This document shows, piece after piece, positions 1,731 to 25,200 of a DNA stretch of 60,109 nt; within the stretch, counting starts at the first letter, position 1, and the number at the start of each line of letters is the position of its first letter. A program made the translations under genes and the position numbers. The stretch is from a virus: positions 658 through 60,766 of IMG/VR virus record IMGVR_UViG_3300037961_003044. One strand, written 5' to 3'. Under the pieces are notes generated by a model. That model had not been told where the DNA came from. It saw only the letters and a program-made list of their open reading frames with translations, and ran no database searches.

Positions 1731-1743
1731 GGTGTTAGTCACC
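1731..1743 (-). promoter_or_regulatory. Stoperator-like site, exact GGTGACTAACACC
   Basis: Exact 13-bp match in the minus-sense direction, the direction of transcription. It lies between the stop of the 1753-2484 gene and the start at 1722. Confidence 0.6.
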
Positions 1744-1752
1744 TGGAGCAAA

Positions 1753-2484
1753 TTAATAAGTCGAAACTTGCAGCCTGGTGGTTTGCCCCTGTTGGGTGTG
1801 TAGTTTTAAAAGTTCGTGGTCCAGGGCCCCTCTTGCGTCCGACTCTGCTACCCTGGCCCTGTCGAGTTCCCCGTTGTGTCGCAGGTAGTCTGCGTAGGCA
1901 CCTCTGATAAGGTAGTCTGAGAATAAGTATGGAACGGAAACCAAAGACCAATAAGTTGGTTGGGTCTTTGGACTATTGTCTGCCCCTGAGGCTACGTCCT
2001 GGAGGGCTATATAAAAGTTGCCGTGACTGTTGTCATAGACATGGTCGCCTGTGACGTAGGCTTTGCTTTGGCTGTAAAGTTCACCAGCAAACTCTGGTGC
2101 CACTTTGCGAAATTGAATGTAGACCTGAGAGTTGCTGGATGAAATCTGAACTCCGTTTTCACTCAGGTAGTGAGACAGGCTCTGGACGTCTGTGTTTGCC
2201 TTGGGTGACTTGTTCCAGACTGCGAAGACCTCAGACATCTCGGTCTGACCTGCCTGGTCAAGTGCTATAAAGTTGCCTTCATCACCTCCGCTTTGGGTGA
2301 CGGTGCGTTGTTCAGTTACACAGACTTCAGGCCACTTGGCGGCCTCCCAACCAAACCTAATACGTCGACTGACCAAGTCTCTTATGAGTCGCCACTCGGT
2401 TGTGGGTAGCGTGTCATGGTCAATGCCTGCCAGGTTGCAAACCTGCTTGAGGACTGTTCTGTAGTTGAGTGGCCTATGAGCCAT
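1753..2484 (-). CDS. Probable head-tail adaptor or tail protein (243 aa)
   Basis: The start is taken at the ATG at 2484 (M-A-H-R-P-L), two codons inside a longer TTG-started frame; it overlaps the upstream stop by 11 bases. The N-terminus is helical and rich in Trp, Arg and Glu; the middle has aromatic patches such as Y-W-S-L-V-S-V-P-Y-L-F-S-D-Y and a Y-A-D-Y-L-R motif; the C-terminus is helical. This resembles the small tail-adaptor proteins of podoviruses, and its place between capsid and fiber genes fits. The assignment rests on context and size; no decisive motif. Confidence 0.5.
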   Translation of the reverse strand: MAHRPLNYRTVLKQVCNLAGIDHDTLPTTEWRLIRDLVSRRIRFGWEAAKWPEVCVTEQRTVTQSGGDEGNFIALDQAGQTEMSEVFAVWNKSPKANTDVQSLSHYLSENGVQISSSNSQVYIQFRKVAPEFAGELYSQSKAYVTGDHVYDNSHGNFYIALQDVASGADNSPKTQPTYWSLVSVPYLFSDYLIRGAYADYLRHNGELDRARVAESDARGALDHELLKLHTQQGQTTRLQVSTY

Positions 2485-2785
2485 AACCAACCTGAGTCTT
2501 TCCAGTGCCTCCGCTCTTCACACGCAGCTCGGGGTTGTTGCGAGCCATGTATTTTCTGAAGTCGGGGTCCTTCCAAATCTCTTTGCCCTCTCGCTTGGTC
2601 CACTCCTGGTAGACCTTGTTGTCCACTTCCATGACTGGTCGGCCCATTCCATTGATAGAACGACGGTCCTGGTTGTGTTTAGCAATCTCACGTTGTCGCT
2701 GAATGGCTTCAGCGTGACGCCGCTCATGGGAGTCGATGTGAGCTTGGGCGAGTTTGTCTCTAACTTCTTGTGTGATGTCTGACAT
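2474..2785 (-). CDS. Small charged protein after the capsid gene (103 aa)
   Basis: The frame runs further upstream, but the sensible start is the ATG at 2785 (M-S-D-I-T-Q-E-V-R); beyond it the frame reads through a hairpin region. Highly charged, with an H-E-R-R-H-A-E-A-I-Q-R-Q-R helix that could form a coiled coil, and it ends in Gly and Lys. Not recognised. It follows the capsid gene and precedes the adaptor-like gene, so a virion or assembly role is plausible. Confidence 0.55.
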   Translation of the reverse strand: MSDITQEVRDKLAQAHIDSHERRHAEAIQRQREIAKHNQDRRSINGMGRPVMEVDNKVYQEWTKREGKEIWKDPDFRKYMARNNPELRVKSGGTGKTQVGYGS

Positions 2786-2841
2786 AAATCTGTCCCCGTA
2801 AGGAGGGAGAGAGTTTCCCCTCTCCCCCCCAGGAGGTGTGT

Positions 2842-2854
2842 TGCGTGACCAGGT
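2842..2854 (+). promoter_or_regulatory. Degenerate stoperator-like site GGTGACCCACACC
   Basis: 11 of 13 match to the repeated site, here in plus sense. It sits inside a perfect inverted repeat CCAGGTG-N5-CACCTGG (2840-2858), in the leader between the capsid stop and the start at 2785. Confidence 0.4.
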
Positions 2855-2875
2855 GACCCACACCTGGAATTGTTC

Positions 2876-3947: not shown

Positions 3948-3959
3948 ATCTAGTTGTCC

Positions 3960-4937
3960 TTAGTTGATAAATGCCGCTTTGATGAAGTCTCTAAGACCAT
4001 CCTTCGAGCCGGTTTTCATCACACGTTTCTTGGCACTGGCAATAGCTTCTTCCGATGCACTCAGGGTTGCCTTCTGTGCAGCAGGCTTCCCAGGTTGAGG
4101 CGTGGGGTCAGGTGTTGTGTTTGCTACTTTTGCCTTGTTGGCCTGTTCTTGCTCTACGTAGAAGCCAACTAAGGCTCTAGCAAGATACAGGTCCACTTCA
4201 GGCAGTTGCTTAATAGCAGGGTTCGCCTGCTTAACCTGATCGACCCATGCCCGTGCAGGGTTTTGAGGGTCCTTCAGCCATGGGTATTTTTCGGATGCGA
4301 ACTCAAAAGACCGGGTTTGCTCGAGAATCTGTTTCCTTCGCTTGGGTATGTCGCTCTCCCTGGAGAACTCAGCATTGATGCTAAGGTCTTCTAACCAGGC
4401 TTCGACATCGTCGGGCAGTTCTTGCCCAGTGCGATTCTTGATTTCTCCTTCTACCGATTCTGGGTCGCGCCGATAGCGTGAGAGGGCTTTCTTTGCCCAC
4501 CTTTCCGCTTCCAGGGCTTGGTCCTCAAGCCTCTCCAGGTCGTCAAAGCTTGACGCCTCCTGGATGAGGTCTGAAATGCCAGTTTGCGACTGCTCTGCTG
4601 GTTGGCGTTGCTGCTTTTGAAGCTCAAACTGTTTCTCACGCAGGTCTTCGATCTCACGTTGGAGTTCGTTCTTCTGCCATGTCAGTTTGTCAACACGCTT
4701 GCGCCAGGAGTAGTCGTTGTTCGTGTCAGAGTCCGTCTCTGCCTTTGGCTCTTCCGGTTGCGGCAATTCGCCTTCCGTAGCCTCGGGCACAGGTGGTGTT
4801 TCTGCGTTTTGTTCGGAGGGTTCAGAGTCGCCAAGGCTTTGCTTGATCGCCGCTCTTACTGCGTCCATTGCACCAGAATCAGGTAGGTCTTCCACTGTAG
4901 GCTGGTGTTCTACAGTCGTAGTTTTATCGTCGGACAT
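3960..4937 (-). CDS. Capsid scaffold-type protein, module A
   Basis: 325 residues from ATG 4937 (M-S-D-D-K-T-T-T); a TTG three codons upstream is less likely. Typical scaffold composition: a disordered acidic and Pro-rich N-terminus, a coiled-coil centre (K-N-E-L-Q-R-E-I-E-D-L-R-E-K-Q-F-E-L-Q-K), and a basic C-terminus ending K-A-A-F-I-N. Directly upstream of the capsid gene, as expected. It would organise capsid assembly and then leave the shell. Called by composition and position. Confidence 0.75.
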   Translation of the reverse strand: MSDDKTTTVEHQPTVEDLPDSGAMDAVRAAIKQSLGDSEPSEQNAETPPVPEATEGELPQPEEPKAETDSDTNNDYSWRKRVDKLTWQKNELQREIEDLREKQFELQKQQRQPAEQSQTGISDLIQEASSFDDLERLEDQALEAERWAKKALSRYRRDPESVEGEIKNRTGQELPDDVEAWLEDLSINAEFSRESDIPKRRKQILEQTRSFEFASEKYPWLKDPQNPARAWVDQVKQANPAIKQLPEVDLYLARALVGFYVEQEQANKAKVANTTPDPTPQPGKPAAQKATLSASEEAIASAKKRVMKTGSKDGLRDFIKAAFIN

Positions 4938-4998
4938 GCTGTTCAATCGGGTCGCAAGTTACCCTTCACACAGGTCTTGGTGGCGCCTGAGGGGCCAA

Positions 4999-5011
4999 GG
5001 TGTTAGTCACC
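4999..5011 (-). promoter_or_regulatory. Stoperator-like site, exact GGTGACTAACACC
   Basis: Exact match in the direction of transcription, 61 bases upstream of the scaffold ATG and just after the 5054-5311 gene. The leader beyond it has an imperfect inverted repeat (CTTGG...CCAAG). Confidence 0.6.
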
Positions 5012-5053
5012 TAAAGCGAAAAGTAAGAGAAACAGTTTTGGCGTCAAGGGGGT

Positions 5054-9049: not shown

Positions 9050-9055
9050 TACGTC

Positions 9056-9334
9056 TTAAAACCGGCTCAACTGTCTGGGCCTTCCCTTGCAATACATCCT
9101 CTTGCCCCCAGGTTCGCACCAGACAGGCACCTGGAGCCCTCTTTGGAACCACCGGGCATCACTTACATGGACCAGCCCCAAGTCGGTCTCTATGAGCCTG
9201 CTGTTGAGCGGGTGACCAATGACCTTGCCCACTTTACTCTCCCTGCCTGCCTTCCAGCGGAGGTCAGGTGACTCCAACATGGTTCGTCGTTTGCCCGGTT
9301 TGCCTCGGGTGCGCTTCTTAGGTTGGTCTTCCAT
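9056..9334 (-). CDS. Small basic protein (92 aa)
   Basis: Very basic N-terminus (Q-P-K-K-R-T-R-G-K-P-G-K-R-R) followed by a small beta-rich part with H-V-S-D-A-R-W-F-Q-R and G-G-K-R-M-Y. Six bases before the terminase start. The composition suggests nucleic-acid binding; family not recognised. An inverted repeat that may be an operator lies just upstream (9347-9379). Confidence 0.5.
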   Translation of the reverse strand: MEDQPKKRTRGKPGKRRTMLESPDLRWKAGRESKVGKVIGHPLNSRLIETDLGLVHVSDARWFQRGLQVPVWCEPGGKRMYCKGRPRQLSRF

Positions 9335-9477: not shown

Positions 9478-9490
9478 GGTGTTAGTCACT
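9478..9490 (-). promoter_or_regulatory. Stoperator-like site, 12/13
   Basis: Reads AGTGACTAACACC in the minus-sense direction, between the small-terminase stop (9527) and the 9334 start. Confidence 0.5.
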
Positions 9491-9526: not shown

Positions 9527-10042
9527 TTACCTATGATTGTTGTCCTGTAAGGACTTAGGTTCAACGACCTCTGCATCTATGACATTTGAGTCCTTAGTTG
9601 CCCCTTTAATCAGCTCCTGGAGACCCTTCCCATCAATGGAGACAGATGTATGTGCCACAATGGCACTGGGTAAGCCCTGAACCTGGACCTCTTTGTCAGT
9701 CAAGATGCCGATGGCGACGGGTAACTTATCAGCCTTCACCTCATCTGCCTGGACGGCCTCCTTGAACTTGGTTAGGCACAGGTCCCTTGTCTGCCTAAGG
9801 TTGTGAATCAGAGCTTCTTGAGAGTGTGCAGGTAGGTTCTCCTTACTGCTGATACCAGAGACGGTCTGCTGACCTATTCCGAATATCTTGGCTATGCTCT
9901 CATGCCCTATACCCTCTCTGATAGCTCTGACTATGCAGTCGTATCGTTTGGGGTCCTTAGCCTTTATCTGGGTGCCGTCGTAGTTCCTGAGACCCTGGTC
10001 GGGCATTCTCTGATTGAACTGAGTGAGTGACCCTTTAGGCAT
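9527..10042 (-). CDS. terS: Probable small terminase subunit, module A
   Basis: 171 residues. A helix-turn-helix near residues 40-65 (R-E-G-I-G-H-E-S-I-A-K-I-F-G-I-G-Q-Q-T-V) is followed by a helical region and a G-I-L-T-D-K-E segment that I associate with phage TerS-like DNA-binding proteins. It lies upstream of the large terminase, separated only by one small basic gene. It would recognise the packaging site. A transcription regulator is the alternative, but position favours TerS. No counterpart from module B falls inside the window. Confidence 0.6.
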   Translation of the reverse strand: MPKGSLTQFNQRMPDQGLRNYDGTQIKAKDPKRYDCIVRAIREGIGHESIAKIFGIGQQTVSGISSKENLPAHSQEALIHNLRQTRDLCLTKFKEAVQADEVKADKLPVAIGILTDKEVQVQGLPSAIVAHTSVSIDGKGLQELIKGATKDSNVIDAEVVEPKSLQDNNHR

Positions 10043-10172
10043 GGTGGTAAAATGGAAGGAGACGGTTAGAAGCTATCTTCTTCCAACCGCCCTCCCAATT
10101 ATCTGTGTCTGACATCCAACTGTCAAGGGTGTCTAACACCCAATCTAGTCTTGTTCCCTCTAACGTGTTCAT
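10035..10172 (-). CDS. Small hypothetical protein (45 aa)
   Basis: ATG 10172 is preceded by a good ribosome site (AAGAAGG, about 5 bases away), and the end overlaps the terS start by 8 bases. Trp- and Asp-rich, with W-M-S-D-T-D-N-W-E-G-G-W. It overlaps the preceding zinc-finger frame by 50 bases. Function unknown. Confidence 0.45.
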   Translation of the reverse strand: MNTLEGTRLDWVLDTLDSWMSDTDNWEGGWKKIASNRLLPFYHHA

Positions 10173-10643: not shown

Positions 10644-10818
10644 TCGTATGTCCTTTCGTTCTTAGTTTGTTGTTCTCGTTCCAGGCATGGGAGGTTGGCA
10701 TACCTCGCTTCCTGAAGAATTCATCGCAGGCCTCATCAAGCCGGGTGAAGAACCCCAGCTCAAAGTAGTGACCAGCGTCCTCTGCATCTATCTGTTCAGG
10801 GCTCTCGTCGTTTGTCAT
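10609..10818 (-). CDS. Small acidic hypothetical protein (69 aa)
   Basis: Starts M-T-N-D-E-S-P-E-Q; acidic N-terminus, an F-F-T-R-L-D-E-A-C-D-E-F-F helix and a Thr- and Lys-rich tail. It overlaps the nuclease stop by 4 bases (ATGA type). Function unknown. Confidence 0.5.
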   Translation of the reverse strand: MTNDESPEQIDAEDAGHYFELGFFTRLDEACDEFFRKRGMPTSHAWNENNKLRTKGHTNVTETDSATKT

Positions 10819-11285
10819 AAATCTATCAATTCCTCTCTCGCCACCTTGTAGACCAGGCGACCGTGCATTGGTTCCAGGTTCCGGTCCTGCTGCACCTGCT
10901 CGGTCGGAATGAAACCGATGATGTGGAAGTCATACCCGTCTGCCTCCACCAACACCATCAGGTCAGTTTTATGAGGCTTGTGGTTGGCTATTAGGTTGCC
11001 TCCTTTCACTGGGGTTGTCTTAACGTCCACCGTCCTGCCATCACGTAGGCAAGCGTCTGCCGTGCATGGCCCTGAACTGTCCAGGTCAGGCCATAGGTTG
11101 TAGGCCTTGCAGAAAGCAAGCTCTCCAGCCACGCCTGCAACATCTGCCTTTTCTCGGGCACCTGGTTGGTCGTCCAGGTGCCCCATCTGATCGTTGGTCC
11201 TAGTGGGGCCGGTCACTCTGATACGCTCGACTGCCAAGTGTTGAGCCAAGGCCGCTTCCGATGGGGTCAGTTGTATTGTTTTCAT
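10815..11285 (-). CDS. PD-(D/E)XK-type nuclease (156 aa)
   Basis: Candidate active site: E55 in G-V-A-G-E-L-A-F-C-K, then D77, then D87-V-K89 in R-T-V-D-V-K-T-T. This spacing fits small restriction-like or resolvase-like endonucleases. A separate Hjc-like resolvase lies at 16673-17044, so this one may have another role such as DNA degradation or genome processing. The N-terminus overlaps the dNMP kinase frame by 86 bases; a 13-bp site lies 16 bases upstream of its ATG. Confidence 0.6.
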   Translation of the reverse strand: MKTIQLTPSEAALAQHLAVERIRVTGPTRTNDQMGHLDDQPGAREKADVAGVAGELAFCKAYNLWPDLDSSGPCTADACLRDGRTVDVKTTPVKGGNLIANHKPHKTDLMVLVEADGYDFHIIGFIPTEQVQQDRNLEPMHGRLVYKVAREELIDL

Positions 11286-11772
11286 CTCTCAGCCTGGCAA
11301 CGGTGTTAGTCACCTCTGCCAGTAATTGTTCAACACCTCCAGTGTTAAGCACTGTTGCATCCGCAATGACCTGGTCTACTGAGGTCTCTGAGACATGGTA
11401 GTCATCCACCCAATCGTTGGATGGCCTGGTAACTCGAATTACCCTACCTCCATGGTCTCTTACCCAGTCAGCCTCGAAGGGGAATCTGAGGTCATCCACG
11501 ATGACCAAGCCTGGGTCAGGCCCGACTCTCTCCTCGAGCTGGTCAATGAATACGTATTTGCCAAACTTGAGCTTGAGAGACTCTCCCAGGGCCTGCATGA
11601 CAGGCCTTACCATCTCCTTGGGCGTCTCTTCCAGGGGCCCGAATATACGCTCAACGTGCTGCTTGATCGGGGTCGCGAAGCTTTCCCTCCTGGCTTGCAA
11701 GACGTTGCAGATATGCCTGGCTGCCGTGGTCTTGCCTGATCGTTTCTTTCCTACAAACGCAATTAATTCCAT
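11200..11772 (-). CDS. Deoxynucleoside monophosphate kinase
   Basis: 190 residues. P-loop G-K-K-R-S-G-K-T-T at 8-16; then V-I-V-D-D-L-R-F-P-F-E-A-D-W-V near the middle, the hallmark D-D-x-R-x-x-x-E segment of phage T4-type dNMP kinases, followed by R-V-I-R-V-T-R-P and a conserved H-x-S-E. It would raise dNTP pools during replication. The last about 35 residues have no family pattern and overlap the next gene by 86 bases; a stoperator-like site falls in this tail (reading V-T-N-T). Confidence 0.8.
   Translation of the reverse strand: MELIAFVGKKRSGKTTAARHICNVLQARRESFATPIKQHVERIFGPLEETPKEMVRPVMQALGESLKLKFGKYVFIDQLEERVGPDPGLVIVDDLRFPFEADWVRDHGGRVIRVTRPSNDWVDDYHVSETSVDQVIADATVLNTGGVEQLLAEVTNTVARLRDENNTTDPIGSGLGSTLGSRAYQSDRPH
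11302..11314 (-). promoter_or_regulatory. Stoperator-like site, exact GGTGACTAACACC
   Basis: Exact match, minus-sense, 16 bases upstream of the nuclease start at 11285, inside the 3' end of the kinase gene. Confidence 0.6.
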
Positions 11773-14946: not shown

Positions 14947-15547
14947 CGACAATGGTCTCCTCCTGGTTTGTTGGTTCGGTGTTAGTCACCTGTGCCTGAT
15001 AGGTATCAGAGGCCAGGATGTCTTCCCGTGCCCATGCTGGAACTTTGTCCCAGTTCTTAGGGTGGTCTTCGATGTTGTAAGACCAAGGGGTGACACTCGG
15101 TTCTGGACACTCAAGGCCCTTAGGCAGTGAAGACAGTCCAGTGATTTTGTCCGTCGTCTTGCCTGAGTCATTGGTGACATGCTGGACCGATGCCAGGCAT
15201 GGCTGACCCAGGACGTTCACCAGATCGAACTTCACCAGTTCCTCTGCCGTAAAGGCGCGACCTCTCCATGACTGGAGATGGTTCCTCAGGGTAGCCTTCT
15301 GGGAGAGGCTTGCCGTGTAGGTCACGCTCCTGCCAAGTGGCTGGGGCCCGTCCTCCTCTTTGAACACTGCCGTGTGTTCGGGGAACTCAAATGTCAGCAA
15401 CACTCGAGTTCGTTTCTTAACCGTGCCCTGCCACTCCGAGTCAGCAGTGCCCAAGTCGATGATGCTGATGCATCGAGCCACATGGTTACCCTCTGGCACC
15501 ATGGTGCGTTTCTTGGCGGTTTCGTTCATTCCTATTGTTAGTCCCAT
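14930..15547 (-). CDS. Phage single-stranded DNA-binding protein
   Basis: 205 residues. Starts at ATG 15547 with the ribosome site AAAGGAAC. The N-terminal V-P-E-G-N-H-V-A-R-C-I-S-I-I-D-L-G-T and T-F-E-F-P-E beta strands fit an OB-fold, and the last residues D-D-V-P-F form the acidic tip used by SSBs to recruit partner enzymes. It lies next to a RecE-like nuclease, the usual pairing. The C-terminal tail overlaps the nuclease start by 17 bases and contains a 13-bp regulatory-type site. Confidence 0.7.
   Translation of the reverse strand: MGLTIGMNETAKKRTMVPEGNHVARCISIIDLGTADSEWQGTVKKRTRVLLTFEFPEHTAVFKEEDGPQPLGRSVTYTASLSQKATLRNHLQSWRGRAFTAEELVKFDLVNVLGQPCLASVQHVTNDSGKTTDKITGLSSLPKGLECPEPSVTPWSYNIEDHPKNWDKVPAWAREDILASDTYQAQVTNTEPTNQEETIVDDVPF
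14978..14990 (-). promoter_or_regulatory. Stoperator-like site, exact GGTGACTAACACC
   Basis: Exact match, minus-sense, 31 bases upstream of the RecE-like start at 14946, inside the 3' end of the SSB-like gene. Confidence 0.6.
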
Positions 15548-15829: not shown

Positions 15830-15842
15830 GGTGTTAGTCACC
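15830..15842 (-). promoter_or_regulatory. Stoperator-like site, exact GGTGACTAACACC
   Basis: Exact match. It abuts the RlpA-like stop and the ATG at 15829; nothing resembling a Shine-Dalgarno separates it from the start. Confidence 0.6.
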
Positions 15843-17304: not shown

Positions 17305-17317
17305 GGTGTTAGTCACC
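17305..17317 (-). promoter_or_regulatory. Stoperator-like site, exact GGTGACTAACACC
   Basis: Exact match, minus-sense, 15 bases upstream of the ATG at 17289. Confidence 0.6.
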
Positions 17318-17376: not shown

Positions 17377-17389
17377 GGTGTCAAACACC
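17377..17389 (+). promoter_or_regulatory. Stoperator-like site, 11/13 (GGTGTCAAACACC)
   Basis: Plus-sense. It is a fuller palindrome (GGTGT...ACACC) in the short gap between the 17289 start and the 17455 stop. Confidence 0.4.
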
Positions 17390-17454
17390 TAATATGCCAA
17401 GTCAACGCGCACCGGGTAAAAAGTGTCTTGCAGCCTGGTTGCCAGATAAGCTGC

Positions 17455-17664
17455 TCACTCGATGGAAACGTCACTGCCTCCTAAAGGGGGAGACTCAGAC
17501 TGATCGTCTAACTCGGCTTCTCGAGAAAGACCTGAAGTCTTCGCCCAGTCGGCGGCCATCTCGAGGTTAGATTTTAGCAAGTCATTCAACATGTCTTTCA
17601 CTTCCATCTCAAGCAATGCTGCTGCCCTCGATGCCATCGCAGTTTGTTCAAAAGTGAGTTCCAT
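17455..17664 (-). CDS. Small helical protein (69 aa), first gene left of attP
   Basis: Mostly one amphipathic helix (A-S-R-A-A-A-L-L-E-M-E-V-K-D-M-L-N-D-L-L-K), then an acidic Ser-rich tail. Begins the leftward early operon. A 13-bp site lies 5 bases before its ATG and a TATAGT hexamer (minus strand, 17689-17684) just upstream of that, so it could be tightly repressed. Size and position would suit an excisionase or small regulator, but no helix-turn-helix is visible. Confidence 0.5.
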   Translation of the reverse strand: MELTFEQTAMASRAAALLEMEVKDMLNDLLKSNLEMAADWAKTSGLSREAELDDQSESPPLGGSDVSIE

Positions 17665-17669
17665 AATTG

Positions 17670-17682
17670 GGTGTTTGTCACC
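17670..17682 (-). promoter_or_regulatory. Stoperator-like site overlapping a likely leftward promoter
   Basis: Reads GGTGACAAACACC (12/13). It lies between a -10-like TATAGT and the ATG at 17664, at the expected transcription start. A weak -35-like TTGTCA is 20 bases from the -10, so the promoter itself is tentative. Confidence 0.5.
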
Positions 17683-17822: not shown

Positions 17823-18776
17823 TTGCACCACAATGGCATTGTGGGGGTCAGGGGTTCGACTCCCCTCGGCTCCACCAAATTTAACTCAGTAGAACCAGAC
17901 CTAATTCTCTCTACCCAGGACCGTGAAGTTGTCCAGGCAATGTGGGAGAACGGAGTCTCGCTTGCCCAGGTTTGGTCCGAATGGCGTCGTTTGTATCTCG
18001 CTTCGCCCCAGCAAGTCAACACTTGTTTCAAATTATTTTTGAAGCACATCAAAGACTCGGGCAGGTCCCCCCAATACTGCAAAGAGTTCGGCTGGGTGCT
18101 TAACAAACTCGGTCTCTACATGGACACCGAGCTTCCCCTCTGCCAGGTCACCACAAAAAGTTGGTGGCGCTCTCTCGATGCAATGAGGGCTGGAAACACT
18201 GTTCGAAGGAAGGTCTCGGTGTTTCTGAACTGGTGCCTCAAGCAAGGGTTCATCAAGGAACCCATCCACATTCCAGGCAAGCCATCCTATCCTGAAGGAG
18301 ACATCGAGGTCCTGACCAACGACGAGGTGTCCTCGTTAATCAAAAGCTGTCCATCAGATTTACTAGGTCACCTCTGGCTCTGTTTGTGCATGGGTTTGCG
18401 AGTTGCTGAAGCGTCCAGGGTGGAGCATCTGAAAGTGACTGCGACCCACCTGGTGGTCGGTGCCCAGGCTGCCAAGACAAAAACCAGACGTGTCCTGGAC
18501 ATCCCTGAACACCATGGACACTACACCCAGTTGATCAGGCCTCAGATAAACCTCAGGAAACGCATGGAGGCTCTCAGGCTCAAGGCTGGTCTCAGCCGAT
18601 GGCCCAGGAACTGCATGAGGCATACGGCAGCCTCACATTGGTTGAACCGATTGCAGTCAGCCGAGTCCGCTGCCCTTCACCTGGGCAACTCCCCCGTCAT
18701 GCTTCACCGACATTACAAGGCTCTGGTTACCCGGCAGGAGTCTACCGAATTTTTTGACCTCTGGGTTGCAGTCTAA
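17823..18776 (+). CDS. int: Tyrosine recombinase (integrase)
   Basis: 317 codons from TTG 17823, which has a strong ribosome site (AGGAGG, 5 bases upstream). Catalytic residues: R193 in G-L-R-V-A-E, R266 in N-C-M-R-H-T, H272 in S-H-W-L and the nucleophile Y298 in H-R-H-Y-K. Two usual His positions are Asn (N263 and the L-G-N-S box), a variant I associate with verrucomicrobial integrases. The first about 19 codons are read through the tRNA-derived attP, so the start lies upstream of the crossover and would be lost on integration. The next in-frame ATG is codon 40. Confidence 0.88.
   Translation: MHHNGIVGVRGSTPLGSTKFNSVEPDLILSTQDREVVQAMWENGVSLAQVWSEWRRLYLASPQQVNTCFKLFLKHIKDSGRSPQYCKEFGWVLNKLGLYMDTELPLCQVTTKSWWRSLDAMRAGNTVRRKVSVFLNWCLKQGFIKEPIHIPGKPSYPEGDIEVLTNDEVSSLIKSCPSDLLGHLWLCLCMGLRVAEASRVEHLKVTATHLVVGAQAAKTKTRRVLDIPEHHGHYTQLIRPQINLRKRMEALRLKAGLSRWPRNCMRHTAASHWLNRLQSAESAALHLGNSPVMLHRHYKALVTRQESTEFFDLWVAV
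17828..17877 (+). other. attP core: 3' part of tRNA-Ala(GGC)
   Basis: Anticodon stem CCACA/TGTGG with 7-base loop ATGGCAT (anticodon GGC at 17835-17837), 5-base variable loop, T-stem AGGGG/CCCCT with loop TTCGACT, acceptor strand CGGCTCC, then ACCA. The acceptor strand carries the T that makes the G3:U70 pair of tRNA-Ala. No acceptor 5' strand or D-arm precedes it, so this is not a working tRNA but the phage attachment site, used to rebuild the host tRNA 3' end on integration. Confidence 0.85.
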
Positions 18777-18807
18777 AAAACTTTTTTTAACTTACTTATT
18801 TAATTGT

Positions 18808-18836
18808 TTGACATTTAAATACCGATAGTGTTTATT
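18808..18836 (+). promoter_or_regulatory. Rightward promoter for the plus-strand block
   Basis: Perfect -35 TTGACA (18808-18813), 17-base spacer and -10-like TTTATT (18831-18836), about 50 bases upstream of the 18888 gene. The bases TTTGACATTTAA at the -35 match one arm of the inverted repeat at 9347-9379. Confidence 0.55.
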
Positions 18837-18887
18837 ACTTGTGTCGGGCGGGAATGAACCCACTGGCAACAACAAGAAAGAACAACA

Positions 18888-19205
18888 ATGAAAATATCAG
18901 ACAGTCAAATTAAAGACCCCGTTGTTGAAAAAGTTGAAGACATATTTACATACCTTATTTGGAAATATGACATCAAATACATGGATGAAAGCGTGTATTC
19001 AGGAGTTCACAGTTACCGATACAAAGAAAACGGCAGCTTGCTTCAAGTGGTGTTTGAGGACGAAAACATACAGCCACTTCTTTTGGGGTATGGGTCTAGC
19101 AAAGTTCAGGAAGAACTGTCCAACCAGTTACGCATCCAAGGCTGGAAAGTTAATTCAAGCTACGGCCCTGTTCTGTTGTTAGAACGCAATTCAAGCCTAC
19201 TGTGA
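18888..19205 (+). CDS. Hypothetical protein, first after int (105 aa)
   Basis: AT-richer and Lys/Tyr-rich compared with neighbours (Y-L-I-W-K-Y-D-I-K-Y-M-D-E). Mixed alpha/beta with a short hydrophobic C-terminus (P-V-L-L-L-E-R). It has its own promoter. The distinct base composition suggests separate acquisition, as with morons in temperate phages. No family recognised; a lysogenic-conversion gene is possible. Confidence 0.55.
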   Translation: MKISDSQIKDPVVEKVEDIFTYLIWKYDIKYMDESVYSGVHSYRYKENGSLLQVVFEDENIQPLLLGYGSSKVQEELSNQLRIQGWKVNSSYGPVLLLERNSSLL

Positions 19206-19213
19206 CTAACACT
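19201..19213 (+). promoter_or_regulatory. Stoperator-like site, 11/13, plus-sense
   Basis: Reads TGTGACTAACACT, overlapping the stop of the 105-residue gene and 16 bases upstream of ATG 19230; oriented with local plus-strand transcription. Confidence 0.45.
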
Positions 19214-19229
19214 TCAGAAAGACAAAGCG

Positions 19230-19826
19230 ATGACCAAGACCCAGACAGAGAAATTCAAATTAGGGAAGCAGGCCCAGGAAGCTTGGGACAAGCTTCAGGA
19301 AACCCTCGATGGCAAAAGGGGCGGGAGGGAGCAGAAGACAGAGCTTGCTCTCAAGGCCATGGCTCAAGCGTTTGACCGGAACGAGGTCTACAAGAGGCAC
19401 TACAGGACAACTAAGACCAACCTCAAAGGCATCGTCTACAGGGCCCTTCCCTACGTGCGTCCCAGGGGAGAGAAGGCAATGACCCCTCGGCAGTTGCGCT
19501 TGAATGTTAGAGGTATGGTGACTCAGTATCTGCAAGACAACACTGAATACACCGACCGATACATCATTGAGACTATGTCCAGGGTGTTTAGAGAAATCGA
19601 CTTGGTTGAAAACCCAGAGCTGGTTCTCAGCAGAAAGCCATCTCCCAAGGAGAACAAGGCAGCCAAGAGCCTGCTTGCCACTGTTCGCAAAACTTACAAA
19701 GGAATGAGCCTGGAAGAGCTTGCCAAGCTACTGAGAGCAACCTCCACCCTGGCAGCCAAGACGGCCAAGGAAGAAGAGGCCCTGAAGCAAAGCAAAGTTG
19801 TTGCAACAACTAAGAAAGCAGCATGA
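19230..19826 (+). CDS. Basic hypothetical protein (198 aa)
   Basis: Lys- and Arg-rich throughout. Helical N-terminus (A-Q-E-A-W-D-K-L-Q-E-T-L), a central R-P-R-G-E-K-A-M-T-P-R-Q-L-R segment, a Y-I-I-E-T-M-S-R-V-F-R-E helix and a Lys-rich tail encoded partly by the third GTTGTTGCAACAAC palindrome. DNA binding looks likely. It overlaps the next start by 4 bases, so it and the ribbon-helix-helix protein are made together. Confidence 0.55.
   Translation: MTKTQTEKFKLGKQAQEAWDKLQETLDGKRGGREQKTELALKAMAQAFDRNEVYKRHYRTTKTNLKGIVYRALPYVRPRGEKAMTPRQLRLNVRGMVTQYLQDNTEYTDRYIIETMSRVFREIDLVENPELVLSRKPSPKENKAAKSLLATVRKTYKGMSLEELAKLLRATSTLAAKTAKEEEALKQSKVVATTKKAA
19796..19811. repeat. Palindrome GTTGTTGCAACAAC, copy 3
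   Basis: 16-bp perfect palindrome (AGTTGTTGCAACAACT) in the 3' end of the 198-residue gene. Confidence 0.5.
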
Positions 19827-20008
19827 AGAAACGAGGTAGAGGTGCCCCCAAGGGCTCGCAAAACGCAATCAAACTACCCGGCAAGCCTGCTACCTGTTCG
19901 GTGGCAGTGCGGTGCCGTCCAGAACAGAAGGAGCAGTGGATGAAGAAAGCCAGAGCCAAAGGCATGACGCTCTCCTCCTGGGTGTGTGAGTCGCTGGACA
20001 GGTGTTAG
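19823..20008 (+). CDS. Ribbon-helix-helix DNA-binding protein (61 aa)
   Basis: Basic N-terminal arm (K-K-R-G-R-G-A-P-K-G-S-Q-N), then a strand C-S-V-A-V-R-C-R and two helices P-E-Q-K-E-Q-W-M-K-K-A-R-A-K-G and T-L-S-S-W-V-C-E-S-L: the MetJ/Arc/CopG layout. Such dimers grip short palindromic half-sites, which would suit the GGTG-N5-CACC sites; one of those overlaps this gene's stop codon. It is the best candidate in the window for the scattered-site regulator. That link is inference. Confidence 0.65.
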   Translation: MKKRGRGAPKGSQNAIKLPGKPATCSVAVRCRPEQKEQWMKKARAKGMTLSSWVCESLDRC

Positions 20009-20013
20009 CCACC
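20001..20013 (-). promoter_or_regulatory. Stoperator-like site, 12/13
   Basis: Reads GGTGGCTAACACC on the minus strand; spans the stop of the ribbon-helix-helix gene, 16 bases before the radical-SAM ATG. Here it opposes local transcription. Confidence 0.45.
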
Positions 20014-20029
20014 TGTCTAAAGTTGATTG

Positions 20030-20950
20030 ATGAAAGATGGACTCTACTGTTCAGCAGGCATGGACATGTTCTCAATCGGCAGCGAGGGAGACGTCCACCG
20101 ATGCAACACCCTGGTGCTTCAGAAGGAACATAGCCTGGGGAACATTTTTGATAGTAACGTCCACGCAAACCAAGCCTACTCCTGGTGCCCTGTCCAGAAG
20201 TGCGAGCAGATATGCGACCGTCACTGGTCGTCTAAGAAAGTCATCTCAGATGGGGCTGAGAGCGACAACCAGGGCATCCAGGACCGCAATGCTTACAACG
20301 GGCTGAAGAAGCCTTGTAGCATCATCTGGGCCCCTTCCTGGAAGTGTAACTACAACTGTCACTACTGCGGTCTGCCCAAGGACACCAGGAAGACCACTGC
20401 CGATCAGTGGGTCCAAGCATTTGAACGGTTCATTGCCTGCAATGAATTTGATGGAGGCCTGCTGCACACCAATGGTGGAGAGCCATTGTTCTACGATGGC
20501 ATTGAGAAAATATTTTCCTTCATGGCATCGAAGGGTTTTGAAATTTGCCTGACCACCAACCTGTCCTCAGACGTTTGGAAGAAGGTGGTTCATGCTGCCC
20601 CTCCAGAGAAGTGGAGAAGCATTAACTGTTCTCTGCATCCAACAGAACCCAAGTTCTCCTGGGAGGTTTACTCGGGCCGAATTCTTGCCCTCAAAGCCCT
20701 GGGCTACCCAGTAGCCATGAATCTGGTTGGTCACCCGTCACAAATCATGCTGGCACCTCAGTATGCAAAGTTCTGCAAAGATGCTGGCATCGTGTTCTCA
20801 CTAATACCGATGATCGGTAAGTTCGATGGGTTTGACTTCCCCACGGTCGCAGACTACCCCAAGGCCATGAGGAGAATTATTGAAAGCCTCTGCCCTGAGA
20901 CGTTGGACGATAGCAACAAGTTTTACGAAGGTGCCAGGGCTACAAGCTGA
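20030..20950 (+). CDS. Radical SAM protein with N-terminal SPASM-like segment
   Basis: Start ATG 20030 (a TTG lies just before). The core has C106-x3-C110-x2-C113 for the 4Fe-4S cluster and SAM, followed by the G-G-E-P motif. Unusually, a SPASM-like auxiliary-cluster segment comes first: C7 in Y-C-S-A-G, C25 in V-H-R-C, then C53, C58 and C62. SPASM normally follows the radical SAM core, so this may be the remnant of a longer protein or a separate subfamily. The C-terminus overlaps the convergent glycosyltransferase by 11 bases. Substrate unknown; peptide or glycan modification is possible. Confidence 0.75.
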   Translation: MKDGLYCSAGMDMFSIGSEGDVHRCNTLVLQKEHSLGNIFDSNVHANQAYSWCPVQKCEQICDRHWSSKKVISDGAESDNQGIQDRNAYNGLKKPCSIIWAPSWKCNYNCHYCGLPKDTRKTTADQWVQAFERFIACNEFDGGLLHTNGGEPLFYDGIEKIFSFMASKGFEICLTTNLSSDVWKKVVHAAPPEKWRSINCSLHPTEPKFSWEVYSGRILALKALGYPVAMNLVGHPSQIMLAPQYAKFCKDAGIVFSLIPMIGKFDGFDFPTVADYPKAMRRIIESLCPETLDDSNKFYEGARATS

Positions 20951-21935
20951 ACAGGAAGTCTTGCCACTTCTTCCTGATGACATCCGCACCAAACGTCTTC
21001 CTGGCAGTTTCCACTTGGTGTTCTGATATTGGCTTGAGCCAGTCGATGTCTTTGTTGATTGCTTCCTCGAGCTTGTTACCAAGTTCCTCGGAGTCCTTGC
21101 AAAGTTGATAGGGCTTCAGCAGTCCTGGTAGCGCAGTCTCCCACCCAGGGTTACCAACCGAGAATATCGGAACGCCTGTGAACATCGCTTCCATCAGTCC
21201 CAGGGTGTATGGTGCCGGGTTGGTGCCCCCATACCAGTAGGCCCGGTGATCGGCCAATGCCTCGAGCAACTGAGGGTATGGTGGACAACCTGCGTTGCCG
21301 TCGATGCCTGAGTTGCCCTTGCCGTAGAGTCGCCTGCTGACCTTCCTGGTTGCGATGTCCCAGCACTTCTTCCTGCACCCTTTGGCCCTGGTTCTGAAGT
21401 TGTTTGCGATGGCTGCCACTTTGAGCAAGCTACCGTTCCAGGGCTGAAAGTCTTCCTGGTATTTGCCGAATGGAATGATGGCATCATGTCCCTGGTAGTG
21501 TTCCCTTGCCTGGAAGCCTGACCAGTAGCGGACAAGCTTCACCCCAGCTTCCTTCATGCGTTTGAGGTGCCTGAGTTCGTCAGTGGGAGGTGCCTGCCCG
21601 ATGTCTCTCCAGATGACATGCTTGCCCTTGAACACGTCCAGGTTGTTGTCGATGAACTTGTATTGGTGCATGACCACTATCACATCGAAGGGCTCAACAG
21701 CTTTCTTAGAGATGTGACACTTGTGGTCCTTGCCAGCAGGCACTGGCATGTTGTTCCACCTCGAGGCCCACTTCCTGGGAACGTCCAGTCCAAGACCTGG
21801 TCTTAGCTTACAGCCTTTGCCAGGCTTCCAGTATGCCCCAGGGGACATCACTCTGACTCCAGGGATGTCCGAGAAAAGTCTCAGCTCATCAAACTCCAGG
21901 GACTGGTGACAAGGCAGGTAGAGCAAATTCAGCAT
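20940..21935 (-). CDS. Glycosyltransferase (GT4-like fold)
   Basis: 331 residues from ATG 21935 (M-L-N-L-L-Y-L-P-C-H); a longer frame begins inside the palindrome at 21953-21973. GT-B features: H-V-I-W-R-D-I-G in the first half and, in the C-terminal domain, W-Y-G-G-T-N-P-A-P-Y-T-L-G-L-M-E-A-M-F-T-G-V-P, the E-x7-type nucleotide-sugar loop. Cys- and Lys-rich insert in the middle. It may glycosylate host surface or virion components. Convergent with the radical-SAM gene; a second, different glycosyltransferase is at 36539-37567. Confidence 0.75.
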   Translation of the reverse strand: MLNLLYLPCHQSLEFDELRLFSDIPGVRVMSPGAYWKPGKGCKLRPGLGLDVPRKWASRWNNMPVPAGKDHKCHISKKAVEPFDVIVVMHQYKFIDNNLDVFKGKHVIWRDIGQAPPTDELRHLKRMKEAGVKLVRYWSGFQAREHYQGHDAIIPFGKYQEDFQPWNGSLLKVAAIANNFRTRAKGCRKKCWDIATRKVSRRLYGKGNSGIDGNAGCPPYPQLLEALADHRAYWYGGTNPAPYTLGLMEAMFTGVPIFSVGNPGWETALPGLLKPYQLCKDSEELGNKLEEAINKDIDWLKPISEHQVETARKTFGADVIRKKWQDFLFSL

Positions 21936-21956
21936 ATGCACATTTTGCTGTTGACT

Positions 21957-21969
21957 GGTGACTAACACC
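21957..21969 (+). promoter_or_regulatory. Stoperator-like site, exact, within an 8-bp-arm palindrome
   Basis: Exact GGTGACTAACACC in plus sense. Here the arms extend to GACTGGTG and CACCAGTC (21953-21973), the most complete palindrome of the set. It lies between -35-like and -10-like hexamers of a possible plus-strand promoter and 21 bases upstream of the glycosyltransferase ATG. Confidence 0.6.
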
Positions 21970-22090
21970 AGTCATAAAGTTACCTCGCTTGTCCGGTAAC
22001 CTGTTGTTATCGGGGTAGCAAGCTGGGTTTGCGAAAACGCAGCACTGTCTTGACTTGGCAGACGACAAATACGTTTGATTCATAGCGACA

Positions 22091-22137
22091 AAACCCTCTC
22101 CCCATGCTGTTGGATGCAAAGTGGGGGGAGGGTTTTT
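22091..22137. terminator. Strong bidirectional intrinsic terminator
   Basis: 14-bp stem, 22091-22104 with 22122-22135 (AAACCCTCTCCCCA against TGGGGGGAGGGTTT, one G-T pair), 17-base loop, T-tract on both sides. It ends leftward transcription from the polyvalent-protein gene and could end a rightward small RNA. Confidence 0.8.
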
Positions 22138-22237
22138 GTTTGGATGTGGTTCGCTCACCCAGTTGCCGATTTCTTCTCGCGACACCGCATTGGCAGTCGT
22201 CGGCTGTGTGGGCGCACCGTTTATTTGAGCGGAACCA

Positions 22238-25200
22238 TTAATTGTTTCTGAGTTTGTCCAGGTGGTCCTGGGCTTTCTCTACTGAGTTGAAGACAGGGCC
22301 CACTCGCCTGCCCTTGTCAGAGTAAATTCTTACCCCTGCTCTGCTGGATGTCTGAACTGCCCTGAAGCCGTAACCGTCCCGGTAGATGGCTCCACCTCGG
22401 TTGTTTAGTTGTCGGACTGGGGAGAACCTTGCTGACGTTCCTCCTCTATCATTCGGAACGCTTCCTCTATTACTGCGTCGGTTTCCGAGTCCCGCATCTG
22501 CTGCGACATCAGGCGGGATGCTTTCAACAGCATCTCTGCGTCCGTTCTGTTTGATGTAAGCTTGGACACCTGTGAGCTTTCTGGCTTTGTCATAGTCTCT
22601 TACGTCTTTTTTAAGTTTGTCAATTTCCCCTTGAGCCAAGTGCGTCTTGATTAATCGTTCTTTCTGCAAGAATGAAATAATATTCTCGGCATGAGACAAC
22701 TGACGTGCTGGTCTTCCAGCAGGGAAGTAAACATCGAAAGCCTCATCAAAGGAAGCCTTAAAGGCACCTATGTTTCCGGTCCAACCGTTTTCGTCCCACA
22801 CATGTTTCTCACCAAACCACACGATGGCCTGGAGGTCATCTGGGTTTAGCCCCAGCTTGCTTGCTGTGTGTCGAAAAACTACTTGGGAAACTGCAAAGTC
22901 CTGGTTGGTTACTGCCCCTTCACTTTTTGGCTGAATTCTCCACTTCTCACTGAAGGGCTCATGAGTAAGTCGGCGCATGAGCCTGGCCGCCCAAACGTCA
23001 ATGGTTGCTTCAAGAGACGCCCCTCCTAAGTTCATTGCAAACTGAGGTGTCTTGGGAGTGACCTTGTCGACCAGCCATTTCTCAGCCATGGCCTTCAATG
23101 CTGGAAGACTGTTCTGACCATATTGCTTACCGTTAGCCCTGACCGGTGTCAGGTTGTAATGCTCTATCCAACGCTTGGTCATGGCAGCAGGCGTCATTTT
23201 GGCAGCCTCACTTCTGGAAATTATTTTTCTCCTAACCATGGTCTCATAAAGTTTGCCGTCTTGCAGAAAACGATACATCTCGTTGTAGCTCTTAATCTGC
23301 CTTTTGAAGTCACCCTTCTGATACCTCTTCATCAACTCTGCTGCGTAGATGAAGTTATTCTCGACTGGTGTCTTTGCGCTGGTCGCCCCAAGAAGGTGAG
23401 TAAACATCTCCGCACCTTTACCAAAGACTTTCTTAATTGCCTTGTTCATGCGGGAATACCACCCCATACCGTCTGTGACTCCTGGGTATTGAATCAGCCG
23501 ATTGTATTCTTCAATAAACAAGTTGGAGAGACCTTCAATCGCCCCATTGTCAATCAGTTCCTTGATGCGCCTCTTCGCTTTCTGAGTGACGTCGTAGTGG
23601 ACGTTGTCCAGGTCGTAGTCCTGGACGTTTCCTCTGGGGCCTCCCTCCCATTGCTGGAAGAACGGTGAATCAAGAATGCCGTAGTCAATGGCTTGATGAA
23701 TGGGCTTATCTTTTTTACCTTCTTCGACTTTCTTGTAGCCGGTAATTTCTATTTCGAGTGCCCTTGGGTCGTCAGACTTTTGGAAACCCAGGGGCCTGCC
23801 CTGGTCGTCAGTTCTACTCGGAGAGAACCTCCTACCTGGAACGCTCTTGGTAAGCACCCTGCCCTTGGGCTTGTCCAGGACAGTGTTGGTCTCATAGGGC
23901 TCTTGGTAAATTACAGGGTCCTCCATGGGGTAGCCCCACTTGCCCCCCGGGCCAAAGGCAAACTCTGAATTGTCCTGCACCAGGTGCTTGTCTATGTCAG
24001 CGTCAAACTCGGCCTTGGTCTTGTAGAATTTAGGTTCGCCAACGGTGACCTCCCCTTTGACTTTCCCTGAACCCTTACCTGTAGTCTCTATAAGCTTCAC
24101 TCTGCGCCCTACGAGGCTGTTTAAGGTAGGTTTAGCCCTTGTCTCTATGGTTTTACGTCCGCTGAGAATGAGGTCCGCAAAGGGCATGTCAGGCTCACTC
24201 TTCACGTTGAAGCCTGGCAGGTTGTCGGCATCTGCTTTCTTGGGCTTAGTTGCTACCAGGAGGTTCCCTCGCTGGGTGACGTTGCCAAAGTATCGGCTTA
24301 TCTCTTTGACGTAGGACTTGGCATTCAGGTTGTTTTGGTAGCCTGCTTTTGTGGGGCCGCCCTTCCCACTCCTGTTGCCTTCGTAAATTAAGAAGTATGC
24401 TTCTCCATCAAGCTTGATGGCGTCGGCTGCCTGGGCAATGACTTTGTGCCTGTTGCCGGGTTCCTTGATGACGTTGAGAACATTGTTGACCGTAGCAGTA
24501 TCGGCTCCACCGTCCGCAATGGTGTTAGTCACCTGGTCGTTGTGTTCCTGGCTTCTGTTGAATGGGTCAAAGATGTAATTTTTGACGCCTTTCTTGGCCA
24601 AGAAGTTGGTAGCGTTATCAAACCTACCACCACCAATGTCTGCGTTGATAGTTCCCCTCTCCCACTTGACCCTGCCAAACGTGGCTGGTGTCTTGGTGCG
24701 GTTAATGGAGGTCTCAGCAGAGGTGTATTCTTGGCTCTTTGGTGTCTTCCAGAGGTCTCCTCGTTTGACGCTATACCTGGGGACACCTTGCCCTGATACC
24801 TTCGAGTTAATGTCCTCGTTGAGTGCCACGTAGTTGGCCCTGAGGTCTCCCTGGAGAGTCTTTTGCTGAACCTGTAACGGTTTACCCTTGGAGTCCTTGG
24901 TCTGCTTCCAGAGCTTCAATCTGGGGAGCATCTCATCGTAGAACCCTCTCATGCCCTTACCACCTAGACGGAGGTCGTCTCCCTCCAGGAGGGCAGACCT
25001 CATTCCTTCTTCACCCTCCATATTGTCGAGGGCACGTTTGGTCATCTCTTTCCCAATGTGGTCCTGCAACTTTTCTTTGGTCATCCCGTTGTCAACTCCC
25101 CTGAAGACGTCTTCCCCAGGAACTCGAACCATTAATTCATAGGTGCCATCATCGTATTCAATGACCTCCATTCCATTTATCTTGTTACCGAGGTCATACC

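Follow-up and report, generated by a model that had tools for sequence, protein, structure and literature searches.

Phage-specific 13-bp repeats at gene borders of uncultured phages and a candidate ribbon-helix-helix-like regulator

Described systems with dispersed regulatory sites

Stoperators have so far been a hallmark of one actinobacterial phage group. Known ribbon-helix-helix (RHH) regulators of the CopG, Arc, ParG and AmrZ type act, to our knowledge, at one or a few operators, and the literature searched on RHH regulators yielded no dispersed stoperator-like set. The C1 repressor of phage P1 is not, as far as we know, an RHH protein. The sites described here lie in a stretch of 60,109 nucleotides of viral DNA (positions 658 to 60,766 of IMG/VR record IMGVR_UViG_3300037961_003044), referred to below as the window.

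The stoperators of the Cluster A mycobacteriophages L5, Bxb1 and TipsytheTRex (PMC3029335, PMC6550527, PMC9283540) resemble these sites in being 13-bp near-consensus sequences that recur a dozen or more times in a genome, for the most part at gene borders, and are biased in orientation with transcription. In both systems a subset lies at promoters and the consensus is phage-specific, tracking the repressor, here apparently in three specificity groups. The site letters overlap too (GGTG..T..CA). An earlier note on this DNA was right that the L5 sequence differs, but the L5 consensus GGTGGMTGTCAAG (PMC3029335) agrees with the window site at 8 of 13 positions and, at 9 of 13, with GGTGACTGACACC, the spelling at one border of a relative. 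The L5-type repressor is a monomer with a helix-turn-helix (HTH) and a stoperator domain, and reads an asymmetric site in one orientation (PMC3029335, PMC6550527, PMC9283540), whereas the candidate here is a 58-aa RHH-like protein and the sites are near-palindromic and flip between relatives. Among the early and regulatory genes scanned, no match to a gp71-type repressor was found in PHROGs, Pfam or NCBIfam. On the best reading, the window system operates in the manner of the L5 stoperators without belonging to that system, because its likely repressor has another fold.

The earlier note knew of no such system outside actinobacterial phages, which is too strong. MrpR (YopR), a master repressor of lysogeny in the Bacillus phage SPbeta, binds a short 15-bp element, SPBRE, at numerous intergenic locations in a single prophage (PMC10516654), but it has a tyrosine-recombinase fold, its reported peaks lie in promoter regions, and element and host differ. 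P1 C1 likewise is a single repressor of a non-actinobacterial phage that binds operators near several promoters (PMC8198154); unlike the system here, it uses the corepressor Lxc and its repression is promoter-linked. The dispersed, asymmetric intergenic motifs of the Nostoc cyanophages A-1 and N-1 were suggested by their authors as possible stoperators (PMC4916379); no regulator was named, and they are likened to the present sites by description only. Start-associated sequences (SAS) of Cluster K mycobacteriophages share a 13-bp length, a GG...CC outline, an orientation and a position just before genes of the non-structural arm, but they contain AGGAG and stand 3-7 nt from start codons (PMC3203893), whereas the present sites lack AGGAG, vary in their left letters and are widely spread in distance. 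At the level of the half-site, AmrZ reads two short GG/CC elements around an A/T-rich linker (PMC3325190), and GGTG-ACTAA-CACC would suggest the same layout for a protein of the same predicted fold.

The 13-bp repeat set and its placement

Eight exact copies of GGTGACTAACACC are present in the window, at 1731, 4999, 11302, 14978, 15830, 17305, 21957 and 24521, all as the earlier note had reported. Six of its near matches were also verified (9478, 10128, 17377, 17670, 19201 and 20001), while one placed at 2842 begins at 2852. The outline GGTG-N5-CACC occurs 15 times against 1.68 +/- 1.40 expected from dinucleotide shuffles (maximum 5), and none of 100 shuffles reached the observed count; the comparison with shuffled sequence proposed in the note thus bears out the enrichment, although its count of 13 needs correction. 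A length of about 13 bp was upheld as well. The repeat set is genuine, and a coding artefact is ruled out.

Strict sites number 12 in 1.3-22.2 kb, where 0.035 are expected, with one each in 22.2-40.4 kb and 40.4-60.1 kb. The phage's own 22-40 kb are without sites, as is the matching part of the relative G007. The lack of sites outside 1.7-25 kb, remarked on in the note, is nevertheless partly trivial, since 40.4-60.1 kb belongs to another phage; a chimeric join is suspected at about 40.4 kb, and a run of N stands to the left of the window.

Within the virion region, the site at 1731..1743 (minus strand, GGTGACTAACACC) lies 8 nt upstream of gene 1429-1722, and the same border carries a site in the relatives G001 (GGTGACTGACACC), G007 and G010. 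The site at 4999..5011 (minus) is upstream of gene 3960-4946, which comes before that of the major head protein, and is closely preceded by TTGACG and a T-rich -10-like stretch; it is kept in G001, G003 and G004 with a TTGACA/G -35-like element. The site AGTGACTAACACC at 9478..9490 (minus) falls between genes 9527-10042 and 9056-9334, in the same place as in G007 (38291). Upstream of gene 9527-10042, which encodes an HTH protein, GGTGTCTAACACC at 10128..10140 (plus) is reversed relative to transcription; it is also reversed in G001, G002 and G004 but forward in G003. Two sites fall in the 3′ ends of genes: 11302..11314 (minus) in the dNMP kinase gene, where it encodes an in-frame V-T-N-T and stands 16 nt before the start of gene 10815-11285, and 14978..14990 (minus) in gene 14930-15547, with the exonuclease gene beginning 25 nt downstream. 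The site at 15830..15842 (minus) immediately abuts the ATG of gene 15548-15829, and that at 17305..17317 (minus) heads the leftward (lytic) transcription unit, about 15 nt upstream of an ATG at 17289.

Around the integrase, a palindromic site, GGTGTCAAACACC at 17377..17389 (plus), lies 4 nt upstream of the start codon of the gene here called RHH-A and is a putative autoregulatory operator; the same sequence precedes RHH-A in G007, G010, L061, L063 and L068. The site GGTGACAAACACC at 17670..17682 (minus) stands 5 nt before the start of a second small gene, RHH-B, and just downstream of TATAGT. Further on, TGTGACTAACACT at 19201..19213 (plus) overlaps the stop region at the end of gene 18888-19205 and lies ahead of 19230-19826, and GGTGGCTAACACC at 20001..20013 (minus) is part of an extended palindrome where 19823-20008 stops, upstream of the radical-SAM gene. 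At 21957..21969 (plus), GGTGACTAACACC lies reversed, within ACTGGTG-N5-CACCAGT, upstream of a gene annotated as 20940-21968; in G001 and G003 this border has a site in forward orientation.

The placement at gene boundaries described in the note is borne out by 47 of 62 sites lying at most 40 bp from a gene border, against 11.3 expected. Its claim of orientation with transcription holds as a bias (44 co-directional, 18 opposite, in six phages) but not strictly, since one and the same border, as at 10128 and 21957, can carry the site in either direction in different relatives. Distances to start codons range from 1 to 149 nt, many sites being 0-30 nt upstream. In G010 (18157-20018) and G007, sites fill gaps of 10-30 bp within operons, and the TAA/TGA of the site often doubles as the stop codon of the upstream gene.

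Chance, or a constraint from coding V-T-N-T, is a negligible explanation for the set as a whole and is refuted as such. The note had considered that conservation might be confined to places encoding V-T-N-T; this is not so, because most sites are intergenic. In addition the spellings change in concert across borders, and the V-T-N-T at the kinase border becomes V-T-D-T in G001, matching the genome-wide consensus TGACTGACACC of that phage. The constraint probably does account for three matches. The copy at 24521..24533 (minus), which encodes V-T-N-T within a gene of 2448 aa, probably arose by coding coincidence and is not a site, because G001 and G002 read GGTGGCTAACACC there and not their own motif; the matches at 14224 (M-A-N-T) and 52179 are probably of the same kind. 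The sequence GGTGACCCACACC at 2852..2864 (plus), after the capsid gene, is probably a separate element, because it lies within an extended palindrome, CCAGGTG-N5-CACCTGG, and does not follow the phage-specific cores, its own core being the same in phages whose motifs differ.

The note had also called for a search in related phages. An unbiased 13-mer search of seven relatives (G001-G004, G007, G008 and G010) placed a variant of the motif among the highest-ranking repeats, and first in most; the same search found none in the distant relatives G011-G013. The cores are phage-specific, being TGACTGACACC, TGACCMACACC or TATGACTAACACC, the last in G007, G010 and L061. Sites differ by 0.58 mismatches within phages, as against 1.67 when one border is compared between phages (p = 5e-5), so that the variants change in concert. 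G007 and G008 retain GGTGACAAACACC at virion-region borders, and the cores of G004 are mixed.

RHH-A and the integrase region

RHH-A (17394..17570, plus) is a 58-aa RHH-like protein and the proposed repressor; its open reading frame had been overlooked in the earlier note. For the RHH protein mentioned there, the obvious gene 19823-20008 (RHH-C) is the poorer candidate, being absent from the site-bearing G001. Every phage that bears sites and has its integrase region sequenced encodes an RHH-A of 58-67 aa beside the integrase, with at least one site directly upstream, and searches with it match only loci of the same phage clade. Outside the overlap with RHH-B, codon differences are 140 synonymous against 5 non-synonymous, which supports coding. 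No convincing match was obtained in Pfam, NCBIfam or PHROGs, and an hhalign comparison with CopG was not significant. Foldseek matches of the predicted structure are overwhelmingly RHH proteins (ParG, CopG, Arc, PutA, MazE/VapB), the best single E-value, 0.67, being not significant. Helices are predicted at 18-31 and 35-49 (to 62 in L063), and the monomer models are without a strand. The ribbon-helix-helix assignment of RHH-A is a prediction from this fold similarity.

The site spelling appears to track RHH-A. At residue 13 of the predicted DNA-facing strand, A goes with TA cores, S with TG cores and G with CA/CC, residues 11 and 15 being invariant; this match comprises three specificity groups only, and descent partly confounds it. 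By its main genes the window phage is the sister of G001/G002, and the TerL and integrase trees group it with them, while the RHH-A tree places it beside G007/G010. For RHH-A, a grouping of the window with G001 and G002 is rejected (AU p = 0.005), although joining it to all of G001-G004 is not (p = 0.63). Conversely, holding the window with the G007/G010 group is rejected by TerL (0.001) and integrase (0.011) and was not significant for DnaB, RusA and the exonuclease (p 0.09-0.11). Only three small RHH-like genes are nearer to G007/G010 than to G001/G002, and the site core of the window goes with RHH-A rather than with the ancestry of the main genes.

RHH-B (17455..17664, minus) is a small open reading frame antisense to RHH-A, with 116 bp of overlap, and a possible counter-regulator. 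An antisense frame overlaps RHH-A in all ten phages examined, and the G008 homologue of RHH-B shows weak similarity to DUF6290/TacA1. The tyrosine integrase (17823..18776, plus; phrog_1, 1.4e-8) contains within its 5′ end, at about 17843-17877, an attP-like tmRNA 3′ end (Rfam tmRNA, 2.9e-8). An integrase with an attP-like match to a tmRNA gene is the pattern of a temperate phage, and this family of uncultured marine phages is probably able to lie dormant in its host. A scan of genome contigs for the integrase gave one Rhodospirillaceae MAG contig, identical to an IMG/VR contig. The 27-nt attP-class sequence is present in 26 of 289 genomes of that MAG's class, including the MAG's own phage contig, and this search picked out no single host. 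No near match for the first 24 kb was found in the phage collection, and the nearest protein matches are distant (integrase, 25% to an Akkermansia phage; TerL, 31% to Phage C75C1).

Possible functions of the sites

The sites probably belong to an autoregulated repressor that governs lysis and lysogeny, most likely RHH-A, and serve it as dispersed operators and as stoperator-like elements. The possibility that they are ordinary operators only, each marking an RHH-A-repressed promoter with elongation left unblocked, is one that we take seriously but doubt. Promoter-like sequence with its +1 inside the site was found at 12-13 of 64 sites, where about 3 are expected, and above the level of site-free gene starts (p = 4e-7); 4999 with its orthologues, and RHH-A in G007, show this arrangement clearly, and T is enriched at -10 to -7. 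Part of the set may therefore be ordinary operators, as about a fifth of the sites overlap promoter-like sequences. At about 80% of sites, however, the promoter is no better than background, and the sites in the short intra-operon gaps of G010 and G007 also speak against this reading. Another phage protein as the binder is unlikely. In the window type a site precedes the start of RHH-B, and this gene also departs from genome ancestry, but in G001-G004 it is of another type, with no site seen before it. The HTH protein of 9527-10042 is flanked by sites on both sides and conserved in all, but is rejected because it follows genome ancestry (89% to G001, 42-45% to G007/G010) and not the site core; RHH-C is unlikely, as G001 and G002 bear sites but lack it.

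A function in RNA, as an SAS, an extended Shine-Dalgarno sequence or a small hairpin, is very improbable. The orientation bias, the many sites shortly before start codons, the possible pairing of GGTG with CACC and the likeness of GGTGA to part of an extended Shine-Dalgarno sequence would all fit. Hairpin and Shine-Dalgarno readings are nevertheless rejected because TATGACTAACACC, in G007, G010 and L061, destroys the stem and the GGTGA match alike; a Shine-Dalgarno-like AGGAG stands apart from the site at 14978, 18 of 62 sites are reversed, and the start distances are too scattered for an SAS with its 3-7 nt (PMC3203893). Still less probable is a role in DNA maintenance (partition, replication or packaging). 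It would suit ParG, a plasmid partition protein, being the top fold match and the sole RHH protein in a weak sequence search, and a DnaA-box-like TTATTCACA that some relatives have close to the early site; yet the sites stand singly at gene borders with a directional bias rather than in clusters, the PHROGs scans made returned no ParA-like protein, and integrase and attP favour integration.

Under the favoured stoperator-like reading, binding, repression, a block to elongation and lysogeny are proposed as follows. One phage-encoded DNA-binding regulator, most likely RHH-A, would recognise the 13-bp elements, dispersed over gene borders in the lytic transcription unit's promoter-proximal part and in the integrase operon, its gene being divergent from the lytic unit and adjoining integrase and attP. 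Two RHH dimers would bind per site, one at the invariant half ACACC and one at the looser half GGTGA (TATGA in some relatives); both halves are strong at the RHH-A gene (GGTGTcaaACACC), which would allow autoregulation. In the lysogen, RHH-A on sites at promoters whose start site they overlap would act as at operators, and on promoterless gene borders it would form stoperator-like roadblocks, so that lytic transcription is kept off. Specificity may have drifted or been swapped between phages along with RHH-A, giving separate immunity groups. A spelling that differs by phage and tracks RHH-A suggests a genome-wide 'stay silent' switch. More tentatively, this may be a second, independently evolved stoperator system, in which a tiny autoregulated RHH repressor, encoded opposite a small antisense-overlapping partner gene, halts elongation throughout the lytic unit in marine temperate phages, with site sets re-spelled wholesale on repressor exchange.

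If true, the same anatomy in an unrelated clade with a different repressor fold would mean that the strategy evolved more than once. How a whole set of sites can be re-spelled upon a change of repressor is an old puzzle for multi-site regulators. With its several natural specificity groups (TA, TG and CM cores) and one phage whose repressor departs in ancestry from the rest of the genome, the clade makes the re-spelling of a dozen sites testable. The concerted drift of short repeats between relatives may also offer a sequence-only route to immunity systems in uncultured phages.

Site set and composition of the record

The 13-bp site GGTGACTAACACC is present in the window in eight exact copies (1731, 4999, 11302, 14978, 15830, 17305, 21957 and 24521), all of which were confirmed as the earlier note had reported them. 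The outline GGTG-N5-CACC, for which 13 occurrences had been counted, is found 15 times, as compared with 1.7 in shuffled sequences, and a stricter degenerate form occurs 12 times in 1.3-22.2 kb (0.035 expected). A near match placed at 2842 actually lies at 2852. The match at 24521 is probably a coding coincidence and not a site, since the equivalent sequences of related phages G001 and G002 differ from their own motif and break the rule of a phage-specific motif. The window has another dispersed element as well, GTTGTTGCAACAAC, a perfect palindrome of 14 bp that is found near gene 3′ ends in three exact copies (2879, 16693 and 19797), with 0.35 expected even with two mismatches; in the related phage G003, five exact copies of the 13-mer GTTGTTGCAACAA were grouped with this same element.

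The window forms part of an IMG/VR virus record 60,766 bases long. As far as about 40.4 kb, its genes are matched by homologues in the same order in a clade of ~40-kb uncultured phages (G001, 39.8 kb; G007, 42.0 kb; G010, 39.8 kb); we infer the label “marine” for these phages from the metagenome/MAG source of one relative. Genes at 40.5-60.1 kb have no homologues in that clade. Region 40400-60109 is syntenic with L082, an unrelated 47-kb contig (47,383 bases), carries a second large terminase gene (48283-50112) and shows no enrichment of sites, and an N-run lies immediately left of the window. Judged by gene content and synteny, this region belongs to a different phage. From these features, the record probably joins two phages, either through chimeric assembly or because they are neighbours; the junction may fall within the tail-fibre gene at 38955-40358. 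The right third is therefore unfit as a control region, and the near absence of sites noted outside 1.7-25 kb holds for the phage's own 22-40 kb, as it does for the matching part of G007. A gene at 22238-29584 encodes 2448 aa; its only matches are a weak one to DUF7178 and two to unknown PHROGs, and the product may be a large polyvalent virion protein that is injected.

Spelling and placement of the sites in related phages

The earlier note had suggested a motif search in related phages, and these have the motif, each in a spelling of its own. Relatives were retrieved by DnaB and capsid, and all 13-mers were counted with one mismatch and no prior motif. A variant of the site heads the list of repeats, or ranks near its top, in seven relatives (G001, G002, G003, G004, G007, G008 and G010), the top site-like 13-mers having 7-10 copies versus 3-4 in shuffles; in three distant relatives (33-35% capsid identity) no site variant is among the top 13-mers of the same search. 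The core is GGTGACTAACACC in the window, GGTGACTGACACC in G001 and G002, GGTGACC[AC]ACACC in G003 and G004, and TATGACTAACACC in G007, G008, G010 and L061. At nine orthologous borders sites differ by 0.58 letters within a phage versus 1.67 between phages at the same border, and shuffling of phage labels within borders gave 1.48 (p = 5e-5). It is difficult to account for such concerted change other than through selection for the binding of a single phage-specific factor.

By placement statistics that are rough, with mechanical gene calls in the relatives and related phages that are not independent, 47 of the 62 sites in six phages lie no more than 40 bp from a gene border (11.3 expected), 42 lie outside open reading frames (5.1 expected), and 44 run in the direction of the nearest gene, the other 18 in the opposite one. 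Thus boundary placement and a mostly co-directional orientation stand, a strict orientation does not, and the coding of V-T-N-T, weighed in the earlier note as a rival source of the motif, does not account for the set. In G010 and L061 sites repeat at consecutive gene junctions, their internal TAA or TGA often doubling as the stop codon of the upstream gene. A sigma-70-like promoter that places the transcription start inside the site is found at 12-13 of 64 sites (about 3 expected), examples being the site in front of RHH-A in G007 and, in four phages, the one preceding 3960-4946. With promoter-like sequence at about one fifth of the sites and a run rich in T at -10 to -7, the set resembles a mixture of operators and of gene-border sites that lack a promoter. 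A DnaA-box-like TTATTCACA, possibly an origin or promoter element, is near the site heading the lytic unit in G002, G004 and G010. The cargo that follows the integrase differs among relatives (window 20027-21968, G002 12418-15618, G007 25078-27129), with a radical-SAM protein and a glycosyltransferase-like gene in the window and different radical-SAM and transferase-like genes elsewhere; sites still flank each.

The candidate binding protein and its apparent exchange

RHH-A (17394-17570, + strand), a previously overlooked open reading frame of 58 aa, is flanked by the lytic unit, which is read leftward, and the integrase gene, which is read rightward. Homologues of 58-67 aa adjoin the integrase in every clade phage with that region available, including G004, where the initial gene call missed it. 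The sites and RHH-A occur together, at least one site being directly upstream of the gene; the palindromic GGTGTCAAACACC takes this place in the window, G007, G010, L061, L063 and L068, a few bases 5′ of the start codon. The frame is coding, with 140 synonymous versus 5 non-synonymous codon differences (summed over pairs) in its non-overlapped part. RHH-B (17455-17664, - strand) is antisense to it, the overlap being ~100-130 bp in most of ten phages (67-200 depending on ORF choice), and the antisense partners are of two unrelated-looking types. The window type has its own site and could, as speculation, be a counter-regulator. At 17823-17877 the integrase reading frame starts within an attP-like copy of the tmRNA 3′ end, GGGGTTCGACTCCCCTCGGCTCCACCA, and integration may therefore change the integrase 5′ end.

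AlphaFold models of RHH-A (mean pLDDT 74 and 83) display a short N-terminal segment and then two helices, and Foldseek matches are overwhelmingly ribbon-helix-helix proteins (ParG, CopG, Arc, PutA, VapB, MazE). As no single E-value is significant and searches of sequence libraries gave no convincing match, we infer, short of proof, a ribbon-helix-helix fold. The strand pair of such proteins enters the DNA major groove, and in a hand alignment with ParG and CopG strand positions 11, 13 and 15 are predicted to face DNA. Position 11 is always C and position 15 always W; at position 13, Ala, Ser and Gly occur in exact agreement with the predominant cores TA, TG and CA/CC, respectively, i.e., three specificity groups in one clade. 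AmrZ reads two short half-sites flanking an A/T-rich linker (PMC3325190), and a reading of this type would suit the GGTG-ACTAA-CACC of the window sites.

The window phage adjoins G001/G002 in trees of TerL (support 97/97), DnaB (92/98), integrase (91/99) and exonuclease (74/82), and of the ~30 genes compared, almost all have their closest counterparts in G001/G002 or, in a few cases, in G003/G004. Only RHH-A, RHH-B and the accessory RHH-C (19823-20008) are nearer G007/G010. RHH-A rejects a clade of the window phage, G001 and G002 (p = 0.005), and its tree groups G001-G004 to the exclusion of the window (100/100). The left letters GG of the window sites are those of G001-G004 and the core TA is that of G007/G010. 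Since the core and RHH-A share this affinity, the core appears to follow RHH-A and not genome ancestry, and the window phage would represent a natural exchange of the RHH-A region.

Known systems and a proposed mechanism

The stoperators of Cluster A mycobacteriophages are dispersed border sites with a promoter-associated subset and a consensus that varies with the repressor (PMC3029335, PMC6550527), and the clade's sites have the same anatomy on all three points. The L5 consensus GGTGGMTGTCAAG is not identical to these sites, as the earlier note held, yet by hand count 8-9 of 13 letters are in common. No L5-type repressor was found in these phages, the candidate repressor has another (predicted) fold, and orientation is less strict than in L5, whose sites lose function when reversed (PMC9283540); hence the set, which by analogy would work like a stoperator system, is not filed as a member. 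The view that no such system is known outside actinobacterial phages goes too far, as SPbeta MrpR/SPBRE and P1 C1 have dispersed operators; for Nostoc cyanophage motifs the same kind of system was suggested earlier, itself only a proposal.

RHH-A quite probably binds the 13-bp sites. Its adjacent integrase and tmRNA-like attP argue for a lysis-lysogeny role, and RHH-A would, with somewhat better than even likelihood, act as an autoregulated repressor of that decision. More tentatively, promoterless sites might block elongation in the manner of stoperators.
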